Virus record (IMG/VR): IMGVR_UViG_3300046376_000044 | Coordinates: 1-37,393 of that record | Length of the DNA stretch: 37,393 nt | From: a virus | Direction: 5' to 3' (one strand) | In this document: positions 19,722-25,377 of the stretch, piece by piece | How the letters are laid out: each line of letters begins with the position of its first letter | Numbering within the stretch: position 1 is the stretch's first letter | The notes under the pieces: model-generated | The model's input: only the letters and a program-made list of their open reading frames with translations | Told to the model about the DNA's origin: nothing | Database searches by the model: none | Translations under genes and position numbers: made by a program

Positions 19722-20144
19722 ATGAACAAGCAGAACAAGCGTGAAGGCTTCGTCAATAACGCCGAGCCCATCGACGAAGCGCCGACCGGGCCATTGATCG
19801 AGAACGAGCCGCCGGTCGTCCCGGTCCCGCCGGACCCGGAAGAAAAAGAAACGTGGCCGGTCAAGGTCAAGTTGCTGCACAAGAAAGTGCGCAACATGAA
19901 AGGCGAGATGGTCAGCGAGCTGTCGTTCCGCGAGCCGACCGGCGGCGACATCAACCGCTATGGCAACCCGTGCCAAGTCGATCAGTATGGCGACGTCATC
20001 ATCCTCGACCGCAAGATGATCACCATGATGGCGGTGCTGTCGGGCATCCTGCAGCCGTTTTTGGAAGCGATGGACCCACGCGACTACAATTCCTGTGCCT
20101 ACAGGCTGCGCGGTTTTTTTATTCCAGATCCGGCGGCTTGGTAG
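19722..20144 (+). CDS. Tail assembly chaperone, frame-0 product (Mu gp41-like)
   Basis: A 140-residue protein: a Pro/Glu-rich acidic N-terminus, then WPVKVKLLHKKVRNMKGEMV and SFREPTGGDINRYGNP, which match the Phage_TAC family of Mu-like phages. It assists the tape measure in tube assembly. It ends at a TAG just downstream of a 7-T run (20114-20120), where a -1 shift gives a longer form. Confidence 0.8.
   Translation: MNKQNKREGFVNNAEPIDEAPTGPLIENEPPVVPVPPDPEEKETWPVKVKLLHKKVRNMKGEMVSELSFREPTGGDINRYGNPCQVDQYGDVIILDRKMITMMAVLSGILQPFLEAMDPRDYNSCAYRLRGFFIPDPAAW
20114..20120 (+). other. Slippery site for -1 programmed frameshifting
   Basis: Seven T residues in frame as T-TTT-TTT (codons GGT TTT TTT ATT) near the end of the tail chaperone gene. 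Slipping back one base moves ribosomes into an open frame of 62 codons. Position and arrangement match the conserved G/GT-type frameshift of tail chaperones between tube and tape measure. Confidence 0.75.
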
Positions 20145-20308
20145 GCGACGAGCCGGTTCTGGATTGCTACCGGCTGGCCCGCTTCTACCACGTCTCGCCA
20201 ACGATCTTCCTTGAGATGGGAATGACCGAAGTCCGCAAGCATCTGGAGCGGACCATCGATCTCGCGCACATCATCAACCGGGAAAACGCATCAAGCGACG
20301 ATGGCTGA
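20120..20308 (+). CDS. Frameshift extension of the tail chaperone (Mu gp42-like part)
   Basis: After the -1 shift the frame continues YSRSGGLVGDEPVLDCYRLA and ends at the TGA at 20308, overlapping the tape measure start (20301) by 8 bases. The body (CYRLARFYHVSPTIFLEMGM) has the short helical pattern of the T segment of GT-type chaperones. There is no start codon with a ribosome-binding site at its beginning, so it is best read as a fused product of about 195 residues (19722-20120 joined to 20120-20308). Confidence 0.7.
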   Translation, partial: YSRSGGLVGDEPVLDCYRLARFYHVSPTIFLEMGMTEVRKHLERTIDLAHIINRENASSDDG

Positions 20309-22904
20309 TTTCGAAGAGCTAAAACTGACGGTCAACCTCGTCGATAATGCATCGGCGGGGCTTACCAACATCCGCACCCAGCTCACGCAACTGACCCAGA
20401 CAGCGGGTCAGGTGCAGACCGCGTTTGCCGGTGTGGCAACGAATGTACAGCAAGTCGGCAAAGCGGCAGGCGAAGCGGCACCGAAAGTCTCCAGCCAAGA
20501 GAAGGCGCTGAAGGAGCTAAGCCACTCGGCCGAGGAAACCACACGCGGCCTTGTGGGAATGGCGCTCGCCGCGAGGCGAGGGGCCGAGGCGTGGCCTGAG
20601 TTGATACTTGCTACGCGCGAGGCGTGGACCGGCATGAAGAGTGTCGGTGTTGTGATGGGTGAGCTGGGCGCAGCTTCAAGGTTGATGGTTGTCGGACTTG
20701 GTGGCGTTGCCATTGGCATCGCCGCTGTCGGTGCCGCTGTCGTCGCCTACGGCGTTTCAGTGTTCAAGTTTTCGCGCGAGATGTACACGCTCAGCCAGAC
20801 CGCGAAGTCGCTGGGCATGACCTTCGGGTCCGTCAAGGCCCTCACCGAACAGAACGAGGCGTTTGGTATCTCCATTGACAACACGGTCAGCGGGCTTGCC
20901 CGGATGCAGGCAACGATGGCCGATCTCTCTGTGAGCGGCTCGCAGTTGCGGCAGCAAATGATCGGGATGGGAGTCCCGCCGCAGCGCATCGACGAAATTG
21001 TGCGCGAGACCGATGTGATCAAGCGGCGCAACATGGTCATTGATGACCAGATCAAGATTGAGGCTGATCTTCAGAAACGGATGGGGAAGGAGGCTGCGGC
21101 TGAGTGGACCAACCGATATGGGAACTGGTTTGGAGTTGATCCCGGTGCCCGATCTCGCCCACGGCAACAGCCGCAGACTGAAGAAGAAAAAAAGCAGGCT
21201 GAGTACATCGCAGACCAAAGCACAAAGATCGCGGTCGAGTGGGCCAAGGTTCTCGACAGTGTCAGCAAGATCAAAACCGAATTTCTGGCGTGGGGATTGC
21301 CGCACGTTCTTACCATCGTCGAAAAAATTGCCACCGCCTTCGACAAGATTTCGCAAGGGATGGACAAGGCAAAAAAGGACGACCCCGGTCATCAATTCGT
21401 TCCCAACAAATCCATATTCGGGCGAACGCTCAACTGGGATTGGAGCGCCGGTACGGGTGTCAAACCGCCACCAGAGACACCAGCGACACCCAAAGCTGCA
21501 ACGCCAGAAGCCGCTCCTGCAGACCCACCAAAAGGACTTGGACACCTTCGCCGGATTCCGCCGCTGGGTTACCATCCGAGCAGCTATGAGGGTGCCAACG
21601 ACAACCGTTCGCTTCTGCATAACGCCAGCTTTGGCGATGGCTTTGGCGGCAGTGATGTAGGCGGCAGTAGTGGTGAAGGCCGCGCGCAGGCCATCATCAA
21701 GGGTGGCGTGTACGAAGCGCTCATCCAGTTTTACGGTTTTCTGAGGGGCGGCGGCACAGGCGGCGGTGGTGGAGTCCAAAACGCCTCGCTGACGACCGGC
21801 GGTGGCCTCGCTGTCGGTGGTGGTGGTGGCGGAGCTGCGAGCTTCGGTAGTCCGGAATTTCCCAATCTCGGCACCAGCTACGGCGTTGGCGGTCGTCCTC
21901 ACGGCAGTCATGTCGGCGCGGGCAGCGGTGATGGTGCCGGTGAATCGCCTGCCGGTGCGCCCGGCGGTGGTGGCGGTCCCGGTAGAGACGGAAGCTCCAC
22001 GCCGCCAAGCGGAAACCTTGCTGCTCAACGAGCAGGGTTTATGAAGGAATTGAACGACAATCCGAGATTGAAAGCCTTTGCCATCGACGCGATGCAGCAC
22101 GAAGGCGGCATCCAATCCAACATGGAGCAGTTGTTCAACTACGCAGCGATGCGCCACATGACAATAAATCAAGCGCTGCATTCGGGGCAGTACGGTCCCG
22201 TGAAGCGTGGTTTGATCAGTGGAAACATCTCCGAAAAAACCAGACGAGCGGGAGAGGCGGCACTTCAAAGTGTTGGGGCCGGATCGAACATCACCGACTA
22301 CGCTACTGATCAAGGCATGGCCGGTGACCCGAATTTCGCAAAATATATGTCAAACCGTGACTACTGGCACATGCACAAAGTGCAGGGTGCTTGGTTTTCC
22401 GCTCACGGCGAGCGAGGTCGCCAATGGGCGGAACGACAGAGGGCAGCGGACGCAAAGTCCGCTTCGGATACCAGTAAGTCTGTCGCGGCGTCGGCCGCAG
22501 TTCCGGGCGCTGCTGGTGGTCCCGGTCCGGTTGGAGAGCGCTACAGCACGCGGCGACTGCAGGGTGAAGGCGGCGAGGGTCAGGATCAAACCGGCGGTGG
22601 TCAGGGCGGCTCTGACGCCGAAGGCGGCGGAAACCTGAAGCGGATTTATATCAGGCCGCAGCTCGACCGCAGTTCGCTCAACGACGGTCCGCTCGACCGA
22701 TCAGCCCTGAACGACAACAACCGACTCCACTCGACCGGCAAGCTCGACGTCAGTGTGAACGCGCCGCCCGGCACCAAGGTCGCATACAACGGCAACAATC
22801 TACTCAAGAACACCTCGATGCAGCGGCAGACCCAGATGATGCCGACATCGACTGGTCCCAGCGTCGCCGACGCCTCGCAGAGCTACATGAGGGGAGGAAC
22901 CTGA
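20301..22904 (+). CDS. Tape measure protein with cell-wall-hydrolase-like domain
   Basis: An 867-residue protein. The N-terminus (1-60) is a coiled coil, a hydrophobic segment lies near 128-155 (SRLMVVGLGGVAIGIAAVGA), helices continue to about 360, and Gly/Ser-rich linkers follow (about 440-575). Residues about 575-720 form a domain starting GFMKELNDNPRLKAFAIDAM, with E601 in HEGG as a candidate catalytic acid. It resembles the muramidase-like insert seen in many alphaproteobacterial tape measures. It sets tail length and may cut peptidoglycan during DNA entry. The last part (about 720-867) is Gly/Gln/Asn-rich. Confidence 0.85.
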   Translation: MADFEELKLTVNLVDNASAGLTNIRTQLTQLTQTAGQVQTAFAGVATNVQQVGKAAGEAAPKVSSQEKALKELSHSAEETTRGLVGMALAARRGAEAWPELILATREAWTGMKSVGVVMGELGAASRLMVVGLGGVAIGIAAVGAAVVAYGVSVFKFSREMYTLSQTAKSLGMTFGSVKALTEQNEAFGISIDNTVSGLARMQATMADLSVSGSQLRQQMIGMGVPPQRIDEIVRETDVIKRRNMVIDDQIKIEADLQKRMGKEAAAEWTNRYGNWFGVDPGARSRPRQQPQTEEEKKQAEYIADQSTKIAVEWAKVLDSVSKIKTEFLAWGLPHVLTIVEKIATAFDKISQGMDKAKKDDPGHQFVPNKSIFGRTLNWDWSAGTGVKPPPETPATPKAATPEAAPADPPKGLGHLRRIPPLGYHPSSYEGANDNRSLLHNASFGDGFGGSDVGGSSGEGRAQAIIKGGVYEALIQFYGFLRGGGTGGGGGVQNASLTTGGGLAVGGGGGGAASFGSPEFPNLGTSYGVGGRPHGSHVGAGSGDGAGESPAGAPGGGGGPGRDGSSTPPSGNLAAQRAGFMKELNDNPRLKAFAIDAMQHEGGIQSNMEQLFNYAAMRHMTINQALHSGQYGPVKRGLISGNISEKTRRAGEAALQSVGAGSNITDYATDQGMAGDPNFAKYMSNRDYWHMHKVQGAWFSAHGERGRQWAERQRAADAKSASDTSKSVAASAAVPGAAGGPGPVGERYSTRRLQGEGGEGQDQTGGGQGGSDAEGGGNLKRIYIRPQLDRSSLNDGPLDRSALNDNNRLHSTGKLDVSVNAPPGTKVAYNGNNLLKNTSMQRQTQMMPTSTGPSVADASQSYMRGGT

Positions 22905-23551
22905 TGGCGCTTGCTCCATCATCGATTGGTTCGCAGTTTCAGCTTCCCGTTCCCGTCAATAGCGGGCCAGCAACCATTATCGGTTTGTCGTCCGGCATTG
23001 CGTGGCGGCAACATCTTCGCCGCGCGAGCTTTCGCAGTGCGCAGTTTTATGTCGATACCAGCGTGCGCGAATCCGGACGGCGTGTCGTCAATCACGAATT
23101 CCCGAAGAGAAACGCGCCCTATGCCGAAGACATGGGGCGACGCGCCATAGAATTCACGGTGCGGGGCTACTGCATCGTCTTTGGTAGCGAGACGATGTTT
23201 CCGTCCGACGTGCTGAAGAAAAAGAACTACATCCCGGCGCGCGATGCGTTGATTAGGGCGCTGGAGACGGACGGCCCGGCCAATTTGCAATTGCCGCTGC
23301 TCGGCATGCTCAATGTGATGGCCTTACGCTATCGCGTCACCGAAGAGGAAAAATTCGGCGGCTATTGCGTGTTTGACATGACGTTCACCGAATTCGGTCA
23401 GGCACCAGCGACAGGCACTCGGGACAGCGCGGCTGGCGTGGGCCTCGCGGCGACGAATCTTGGCAACGCGGCGCAGACCGCCATCACCAACGGGATCACC
23501 GCCATCAATAGCGGAGCTGCGACGACGACAAGCGGGAGCATCTCCACATGA
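22904..23551 (+). CDS. Mu gpN-like DNA circularisation protein, N-terminal half
   Basis: A 215-residue protein with the DNA_circ_N pattern: WRQHLRRASFRSAQFYVDTS, GRRVVNHEFPKRNAPYAEDM and the following strand-rich region. In Mu, gpN is a tail/baseplate protein. This gene ends after an Ala/Gly/Thr-rich tail where the Mu protein continues. It overlaps the next gene as ATGA, and the next gene supplies the missing C-terminal half. Confidence 0.75.
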   Translation: MALAPSSIGSQFQLPVPVNSGPATIIGLSSGIAWRQHLRRASFRSAQFYVDTSVRESGRRVVNHEFPKRNAPYAEDMGRRAIEFTVRGYCIVFGSETMFPSDVLKKKNYIPARDALIRALETDGPANLQLPLLGMLNVMALRYRVTEEEKFGGYCVFDMTFTEFGQAPATGTRDSAAGVGLAATNLGNAAQTAITNGITAINSGAATTTSGSIST

Positions 23552-24222
23552 TGCAGTCGGGGGACGTTCGCGAAGCCGCCGATATCGTTCGCGTCGCGAC
23601 CAGCATGCTGTTGCAGACATCGAACAACCAGATTGGCCGCGCCGGATCGGATCTTCGTCGTGCGTGCGGTGACATGGCTGCGAATGCCGAGACGTACATC
23701 ACCTATAACCAGATTGCGCCCAAGCTCGCTTACTGTTTCAATCAGGCGCGGCTGACCGGCGCGACGATGGACGAATTCAACCGGATTCAGGAAGCGCTGG
23801 TCGCCGAGACGCCGGTCTCGCTCATCGCCGTCCTGCTGACGCAGGCCTGCATTGCTTTCAGCCTGCAGCAATTGTCGCTGGCCCTGCTGAGCATCACATT
23901 CACCAGCCGTCAGGATGTGGACGCCGTGCTGCCTCAGATCAACGCCGCCTTCGATCTAGCCGAAGAGGCGGCTGCAGACGAGATGGCGCTCGTGACCTAC
24001 CGAACCCTGATCGCGTTGCACGCGGCGACGACGTTCTATCTGTACAACACAGCCCAACCGTTGCCGCAGATGCTCGATTTCCAGTTTGCGGCGATCAGGC
24101 CGACGCTGATCCAGTCTTATCGTCTCTACGCCGATGCGAGCCGCGCCGACGAATTGCGCGACGAGAACAAGGTGGTTCATCCGGCCTTCGCGCCACGGCT
24201 GGGTCGAGGGCTCTCGTTTTAG
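23548..24222 (+). CDS. Mu gpN-like protein, C-terminal half
   Basis: A 224-residue helical protein whose end (SYRLYADASRADELRDENKV, VHPAFAPRLGRGLSF) matches the C-terminal signature of gpN-type proteins. The start is ATG 23548 or 23551, coupled to the N-terminal half through ATGA. The two proteins together total 439 residues, near the size of Mu gpN. The middle is Ala/Leu/Thr-rich helix. Confidence 0.65.
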   Translation: MMQSGDVREAADIVRVATSMLLQTSNNQIGRAGSDLRRACGDMAANAETYITYNQIAPKLAYCFNQARLTGATMDEFNRIQEALVAETPVSLIAVLLTQACIAFSLQQLSLALLSITFTSRQDVDAVLPQINAAFDLAEEAAADEMALVTYRTLIALHAATTFYLYNTAQPLPQMLDFQFAAIRPTLIQSYRLYADASRADELRDENKVVHPAFAPRLGRGLSF

Positions 24223-24225
24223 TCC

Positions 24226-25377
24226 ATGTCGTTCAATCCGGCAGAAGTTGCAGAACTGAACGTCAATGGCGTGAGCTTCCAAGATTGGGAGACTGTCTGG
24301 GTCCAGCATCGCTGGGCAGAGGGCTGGCCGACGTTTCGGTTCACTGCCGCCGAAAATGCGACGATGCCGCTTTCGTGGATCAATCTGCAGTTCAAGCCCG
24401 GCGATGCCTGCACCATTACGCTCGGTGGCCAGCAGGCCATCGACGGAATCATCCTGACGCGGCAGACCGCCTACGACGCAAGCAACCATCAGGTGGAATT
24501 GTCGGGCGCAGGCCGGACGTATGCGGCGTCAACTTCCAGCGTTGACGCCAAGGACGCCAATTTCGACATGAGGACGCTGATTGATGTTGCCGAGAAGGTC
24601 TACGGCAAATTCGGGGTAAGCGTACTGCCAGTCGGAACGGTTGATGCCACGCCGTTCACCAAGTGTCAGGCACAGCCGGGCGAATTGCTGTTCGACTTTG
24701 TTGACAAGCTCGCGCGGCAACGCGGGGCGACACTCGGATCGGACCATCTCGGCAACATGCTGCTGATCGGCGACCACACGGGCACCGTGGTGCAGAATCT
24801 GGTCGAGGGCGAGAACATCATGAAGATGCAGTGCGTCATCTCCAATGAGGTGATGGCGAATATCTACAGCGCTGTTGGGCAGGCCGCCAATGCCGAAACG
24901 CTGTCCCCCGCCCAATCCGCCATGGTGGAAAAACAAGTCACCAGCAACAATTACAGAGGCTACTTCAAATTCCTTCAGACCGTGCTGGAACACCCGTTCA
25001 TGCAGCCGAACGAGGTGGCGAAGCGAGCCGAATACGAGGCGCAATTCCGCGACGGCACACAGATCCGCGCCAACGTCACTGTGCAGGGCTGGCTGCGCGA
25101 TGGCGTCAATCTCTGGCGCTGCGGCGACGACGTTATCGTCAACTCGCCGATGGCGATGCTCAACTTCGTCATGAAAATCCAGACGTTGACATTCCAGCAG
25201 GACAACCAGAGCGGCACGACGACCGTGCTTGAGCTGGTGATGCCGTGGATGCTTTCAGACAAGCCTTTCACGGCAGTGGGTCAGAGCCCGGCCGACATTC
25301 CGCAAGCGCCGCCACCGGCAACCGACGTGCCGAGTACCGGCAGCACGCAAACCGGCAGATCGCCCGGACCCGTGTAA
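24226..25377 (+). CDS. Baseplate hub protein (Mu gp44/gpP-like)
   Basis: A 383-residue protein containing a hub-type N-terminal beta domain (FRFTAAENATMPLSWINLQF, KPGDACTITLGGQQAIDG), a DVAEKVYGKFGVSV segment and a C-terminal domain around GWLRDGVNLWRCGDDVIVNS. The pattern matches the Mu P hub (T4 gp27-like fold). It forms the central trimeric ring under the tube. The tail end is Pro/Thr-rich. The ATG comes four bases after the previous stop. Confidence 0.85.
   Translation: MSFNPAEVAELNVNGVSFQDWETVWVQHRWAEGWPTFRFTAAENATMPLSWINLQFKPGDACTITLGGQQAIDGIILTRQTAYDASNHQVELSGAGRTYAASTSSVDAKDANFDMRTLIDVAEKVYGKFGVSVLPVGTVDATPFTKCQAQPGELLFDFVDKLARQRGATLGSDHLGNMLLIGDHTGTVVQNLVEGENIMKMQCVISNEVMANIYSAVGQAANAETLSPAQSAMVEKQVTSNNYRGYFKFLQTVLEHPFMQPNEVAKRAEYEAQFRDGTQIRANVTVQGWLRDGVNLWRCGDDVIVNSPMAMLNFVMKIQTLTFQQDNQSGTTTVLELVMPWMLSDKPFTAVGQSPADIPQAPPPATDVPSTGSTQTGRSPGPV

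Follow-up and report, generated by a model that had tools for sequence, protein, structure and literature searches.

A contractile-tail tube initiator carried by two coupled genes in a phage with a Mu-like tail module and in its relatives

The viral record IMGVR_UViG_3300046376_000044 carries a known part of the contractile-tail baseplate, the tube initiator of the gpN (gp43) type, as two overlapping genes. The genes and the tail module around them were read in the whole record of 37,393 bases, referred to below as the window. Open reading frame 1 (ORF1; 22904..23551, plus strand) encodes a tube-initiator (DNA_circ_N) subunit of 215 residues, and ORF2 (23548..24222, plus strand) a helical subunit of 224 residues with a LysM-like end. 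The start of ORF2 and the stop of ORF1 share an ATGA (23548..23551, plus strand) within the junction cacATGATGcag; ORF2 may begin at 23548, inside this overlap, or at a second ATG at 23551 (TGATG). An earlier note on this DNA had described a gpN-like protein in two ATGA-coupled genes, and its coordinates and junction proved exact. This two-gene form of the baseplate part is real, old and repeated. ORF1 and ORF2 probably constitute a two-subunit baseplate centrepiece, held together non-covalently, the likeliest contact being the C-terminal helix of ORF1.

Two genes that tile one protein family

The two products fall on opposite ends of the same family. ORF1 matches the Pfam family DNA_circ_N (PF07157, E 7.2e-21), bearing out the DNA_circ signature that had been claimed for the first protein, and positions 4-164 of the 411 in phrog_184, 'baseplate hub' (E 1.2e-35); ORF2 matches positions 265-402 of phrog_184 (E 1.2e-9). 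No Pfam family above the cut-off was found for ORF2, and the same holds for all three ORF2-type proteins scanned (those of the window, phage phiKM1 and contig L094). On a profile of 40 fused homologues (436 positions), ORF1 residues 21-215 cover positions 1-187 (E 5e-52) and ORF2 residues 1-224 cover positions 179-436 (E 7e-28): the two genes jointly tile the fused gpN (gp43) family profile from end to end, without a gap, and comparison with this profile places the cut downstream of the post-tube helix. Loss of the LysM domain, a guess from the unmatched phrog_184 positions 165-264, was rejected, as the structure model and the profile comparison show nothing missing. Together the products have 439 residues, which the earlier note took to be close to full length; this is a normal length for the family, since the stop-to-stop frames of fused relatives span 374 to 566 codons, and Mu gpN has 495 residues. 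Alignments of 59 and 60 sequences show conservation of each half, so the finding is not due to chance. A single-sequence phmmer search with ORF2 against PDB sequences gave no match; the ORF2 profile A2 retrieved 9rku (E 0.00019) and 8fqc (E 0.017), the remaining rows being chance rows.

Structure models lead to the same proteins. AlphaFold2, run on single chains of ORF1 and ORF2 separately with these alignments, gave models with predicted local distance difference test (pLDDT) values of 79.5 and 88.5, respectively, and the top three Foldseek entries are identical for both: Mu (9ki1), Milano (8fqc) and 7-7-1 (9rku). The modelled tube-like beta domain of ORF1 (residues 33-166; 23000..23401, plus strand) was aligned by VIA-align to Mu gp43 (ORF1 38-166 on 23-141; Z 13.0, root-mean-square deviation (rmsd) 3.8, 117 residues aligned), Milano gp25 (33-186 on 7-140; Z 11.1, rmsd 4.4, 128 aligned) and the 7-7-1 protein (36-167 on 8-128; Z 10.5, rmsd 4.1, 116 aligned), and the lower rows are tube-type proteins from other baseplates. 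The helical domain of ORF2 (residues 4-169; 23557..24054, plus strand) is placed by alignments that run over the whole chain: residues 1-224 on Milano gp25 166-396 (Z 15.3, rmsd 3.6, 221 aligned), 1-223 on Mu gp43 178-494 (Z 14.9, rmsd 3.8, 223 aligned) and 1-224 on 7-7-1 166-396 (Z 14.4, rmsd 3.7, 221 aligned). After these three tube initiators the next-best row is a designed helical filament (Z 9.0).

At its C-terminal end the ORF2 model has a strand, two helices and a strand (residues 174-179, 186-194, 197-207 and 218-223), the order of a LysM domain. This predicted LysM-like fold (residues 174-223; 24067..24216, plus strand) occupies the place of the Milano gp25 LysM (BW4) and contains the motif ADELRDENKVVHP, the 'ADELRxENxVVHP' stretch that had been put forward earlier as a C-terminal signature of gpN. 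The top matches in the fold search of ORF2 are gpN-type chains, and gp53 is absent among the matches listed. Another identity considered for ORF2 is BH1a of Pam3, XM1 and E217, a small baseplate protein that occupies the space between hub and wedge where the tube initiator lacks a LysM. Given the LysM-like end of ORF2 this seems less likely; most simple baseplates do not combine a LysM with BH1a (PMC11915804).

Spread, junctions and history of the split

The split is shared by the relatives of the window. The first collection held 105 sequences, a sample biased towards close kin in which the window and its copy L001 are both counted and some contigs appear twice: 98 match both parts, every one of the 98 has two open frames, and the other 7 match one part only. 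The earlier note had proposed that relatives be checked for one gene or two; close kin have two, and fused forms exist in other relatives. A less biased draw from the order of Bradyrhizobium stylosanthis BR 446 yielded 25 places in 23 of 397 genomes: 11 are split, 2 are unclear and 12 are fused, of which 8 were recognised by both matches and 4 by frame length only. A draw from the genus of that strain yielded 28 places in 15 of 265 genomes: 20 are split, 5 are fragmentary or unclear, and 3 are fused, one of them judged by frame length only. Wider draws were taken from the class, where 13 of 385 genomes contain DNA_circ_N, and from the phylum, where 18 of 398 do; most of these genes are long single frames. 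Counted from the other half, 212 unique ORF2-type matches, which take in most close kin and miss fused proteins that the ORF2 profile overlooks, comprise 173 adjacent split pairs, 28 fused genes, 4 split pairs with intervening genes, 6 matches whose upstream part lies outside the available sequence, and L267, which is fused with a weak first part. Seven loci (L225, L230, L288 and L293-L296) are entered in the counts as unclear in state. Among the literature matches listed, titles and the starts of abstracts do not describe a split gpN.

Genome G448 has four DNA_circ_N places, of which L244, L251 and L253 are whole and L254 has its gene in two overlapping frames. Plasmid pBoOM27 of Bradyrhizobium ottawaense has an ORF1-type gene (L307, 5974-6522) near transposase genes, with no recognisable ORF2; this is probably the remnant of a tail module.

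Junctions were compared in 65 unique pairs, with start codons chosen by a script: 45 pairs overlap by 1-4 bases and 4 by more, 15 are spaced by 0-8 bases and 1 by 2064, and the frame relation is 2, 1 and 0 in 48, 10 and 7 pairs, respectively. The genes run ORF1, P, ORF2, V in L094 (234-2131) and ORF1, P, V, ORF2 in L062 (356-3329), where P and V were named by eye, and in L086 (1257-3354) and L149 (4575-6385) two ORFs are inserted between the split tube-initiator genes. Because other genes intervene, a frameshift at a single junction cannot join the parts in any of these four contigs. Both genes are under purifying selection: between the window and 10 relatives the ratio of nonsynonymous to synonymous substitution rates is 0.17-0.32 for ORF1 and 0.125-0.243 for ORF2, rough figures since some of the synonymous rates (dS) exceed 1. 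As a rule, ORF1 and ORF2 cannot yield a single chain, and the two domains lie on two ORFs, not on one polypeptide, in the window and throughout its clade. As to the inserted genes, the first is of about 480 residues with a signal-like start in both contigs and has in L149 a weak, pectate lyase-like match (PF12708, below the cut-off); the second has 207 residues in L086 and 137 in L149.

Trees were computed from the tube domain after dropping L254, rows of undecidable state (e.g., L238, L241, L263) and rows that matched under 100 profile positions. Of the 265 rows retained, 220 are split and 45 fused; once rows at least 80% identical had been removed, 159 (119 split, 40 fused) were left. The 159-row tree has 8 state changes, and the window's group in it is split throughout (97/97 rows; Shimodaira-Hasegawa-like approximate likelihood ratio 99). 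A 65-row tree, its rows picked after the first tree had been seen, combines 28 fused rows with 37 of the 119 split ones (18 of the 97 in the window's clade, 19 of the 22 outside it), leaving out 12 of the 40 fused rows, Mu included, that sit on long branches. It has 7 changes (bootstrap range 7-8), at least 3 of them required by the starred branches. A single change occurs in none of 200 bootstrap trees, and the constraint of one split clade is rejected by the approximately unbiased test (p 0.00012). Split L245 is the sister of the fused phage phiAP1 (support 100/98), with the split phage phiKM1 nearby. The trees thus indicate that splitting, or fusion of two-gene forms, took place repeatedly; they do not tell the direction of change.

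These data bear on two rival explanations. That the split is recent, or a sequencing error, was one of the alternatives in the earlier note and can practically be dismissed. A parallel exists in L254, where the two parts occupy different frames with a wide overlap and whose genome also carries the intact L251 and L253. In the window's clade, however, the two-gene state is conserved, each junction has a start codon, and both genes are held by selection. The uniform state of the 98 sequences with both matches, the varied frames and spacings and the genes that intervene in 4 of the 212 ORF2-type matches reject a recent event, and the relatives likewise reject a read-through frame restored by correcting an error, the outcome named in that note as its refutation. 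The other alternative offered there, that the parts form a complex, is the better supported, by inference from the one-chain homologues. It is very improbable that some full-length gpN is still made where the genes meet, by stop read-through or a programmed -1 frameshift: the ORF2 frame is open from 23512 in the window, which leaves 37 bases usable, but inspection of 23512-23548 by eye found no slippery heptamer, and the varying frame relation and the four contigs with intervening genes rule it out as the general mechanism.

A probable centrepiece of two subunits

The one-chain homologues suggest what the parts do. In Mu gpN/gp43 (PDB 9ki1), as portrayed in PMC11915804, the tube begins on the tube-like domain, and the helix-rich part with the LysM is embedded between the wedges; the window shares both domains and the place between tape measure and gpP, whereas in Mu a flexible loop connects them within a single chain of 495 residues. 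The ORF1 and ORF2 models likewise match Agrobacterium phage Milano gp25 (PDB 8fqc; residues 7-140 and 166-396) and its counterpart in phage 7-7-1 (PDB 9rku). Milano gp25, however, is one chain of 398 residues, divided in PMC10811340 into tube (1-127), helical (141-345) and LysM/BW4 (346-396) domains. Its linker (129-139) is poorly seen in the map, and the authors argue that it is intact, the integrity of the tube-helical chain being critically important in the pyocin 'Ripcord' (PMC10811340).

Other contractile systems divide the task differently. The R-type pyocin, with Ripcord PA0626 and glue protein PA0627, and T4, with gp53, share with the window a tube with a helical lock and a LysM protein; in the pyocin the LysM is on a separate chain and tube and helical parts are joined, whereas in the window the tube is separate and the helical and LysM parts are joined (PMC10811340). 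ORF2 resembles the BW4, T4 gp53 and PA0627 glue proteins in that its LysM fold and the tube domain are on different chains, and the unbroken tube-helical chain of the pyocin Ripcord is interrupted here by the gene structure. Pa193 is described as using several chains, i.e., baseplate tube gp37, ripcord-1 gp38, ripcord-2 gp39 and helical bundle gp34 (PMC11042391), which makes non-covalent solutions plausible. Two genes are also present in Komagataeibacter phage phiKM1 (LC644974), in which PhiKM1_540 and PhiKM1_550 (254 and 189 residues) are consecutive and overlap, each annotated in the deposited record as 'DNA circularisation protein N-terminus'; it lies elsewhere in the tree, and its cut is, by profile extrapolation, about 33 codons further downstream than in the window's group. 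The report on its host, K. maltaceti NBRC 14815, gives particle tails of 104.6 nm by electron microscopy (n = 3), calls all phages seen from this strain myovirus-like, took the phiKM1 genome from a DNase-treated phage fraction and bases infectivity on a PHAST prediction (PMC8566455). As the phiKM1 genome came from such a fraction of a strain with tailed particles, a phage of the split form does build tails.

ORF1 retains a tail that could serve as tether. Its modelled C-terminal helix (residues 176-202; 23429..23509, plus strand) aligns with the post-tube segment of the fused homologues in the profile comparison. The tail extends 33-92 residues beyond the tube domain in all 65 pairs, and a proline-free stretch of 18 residues is present in 64/64 unique ORF1 tails. 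The first test of amphipathicity was confounded by proline placement and was replaced by shuffling within segments, in which the mean helical hydrophobic moment of the proline-free tail parts is 0.370 against 0.302 when shuffled (standard deviation (sd) 0.011; 0/500; 63 segments); at a strand-like angle of 160 degrees, 26/500 shuffles reach the observed moment. In more distant split members the helical moment is 0.305 against 0.261 (sd 0.016; 3/500), the 21 segments partly overlapping the set of 63. Short ORF1 tails in distant split members, suspected at one point, were rejected on a recount that found at least 34 residues in all 23 other split members it covered; in two of these, L228 and L229, the tube end could not be placed, and phiKM1 and L245 are cut later.

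We therefore propose docking of the ORF1 helix on ORF2, since ORF1 tails are kept and are amphipathic on average. The overlapping genes would be translated separately and their products would then assemble non-covalently. By analogy with the Mu and Milano structures, ORF1 would form the ring that starts the tail tube, and the helical domain of ORF2 would lie between the wedges, followed by the LysM 'glue' domain. The likeliest contact is the ORF1 C-terminal helix, i.e., the first post-tube segment of the one-chain form, packed on the ORF2 bundle; when the tail fires, this helix would be drawn out of the wedges by the tube, perhaps along with ORF2. What is observed are the two genes, their domains and their conservation as a pair, from which co-assembly, contact and the pulling step are extrapolated.

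Several observations weigh against this proposal. Unrelated helical bundles can attain VIA Z scores of about 13, although for ORF2 the sequence profiles agree with the fold matches; the ORF1 tail is weakly conserved in sequence and uneven in model confidence (block mean pLDDT 59-90 over residues 171-215); the distant split members L223 and L291 have no 18-residue proline-free stretch in it; and the Milano paper calls an unbroken chain critically important in pyocin assembly (PMC10811340). A firing mechanism without any ripcord is conceivable, if rather doubtful: ORF2 would act like T4 gp53 or the pyocin glue protein and remain on the wedges, mechanically unconnected to the tube, and wedge rearrangement alone would effect release. 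The LysM proteins of T4 and the R pyocin are indeed separate chains (gp53 and PA0627; PMC10811340), and the gene orders of L062 and L094 show that ORF2 need not be made beside ORF1. ORF2 also holds the helical domain, however, which in the pyocin is extruded with the tube (PMC10811340), and the ORF1 tails, with their proline-free stretches and average amphipathicity, also speak against this mechanism.

A model of contractile firing, in which one chain links the moving tube to the wedge lock (as set out in the Milano paper, citing pyocin work; PMC10811340), meets in the split phages a natural, widespread and repeated experiment with that link non-covalent. We lean towards the view that in a large clade of contractile phages, including prophages in Bradyrhizobium and other Hyphomicrobiales, the covalent ripcord has been naturally cut, that firing proceeds without chain integrity, via the helix-in-bundle contact or wedge rearrangement alone, and that the chain was cut or rejoined several times. 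Fused and split phages, some within one bacterial genus, make the ripcord idea directly testable, and ORF2-type genes gain a name.

The surrounding tail module

The pair sits between tape measure and gpP, as do Mu gpN and the DNA_circ_N family (phrog_184). That family is further associated with a hexameric assembly at the junction of tube and baseplate and with circularisation of the DNA once it has entered the cell. Upstream lies a gene for 867 residues (20301..22904, plus strand), the tape measure by position, with matches to phrog_2013 'lytic tail protein' (2.3e-6) and phrog_1272 'tape measure' (0.01); downstream, a gene for 383 residues (24226..25377, plus strand) encodes a gpP (gp44)-like baseplate hub (phrog_177 5.8e-46, PF21683, PF22255). 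The module as a whole is Mu-like in order: sheath, tube, a tail protein in the chaperone position, tape measure, ORF1, ORF2, gpP-like hub, an ORF without PHROG match, wedge subunit, baseplate J and a second wedge subunit. A run of seven T (20114-20120) lies inside the ORF at 19722-20144 (tail protein, phrog_166), and a -1 shift there would reach the frame of the ORF at 19853-20308, which ends at the tape measure start; we take this to resemble the usual programmed frameshift of tail assembly chaperones.

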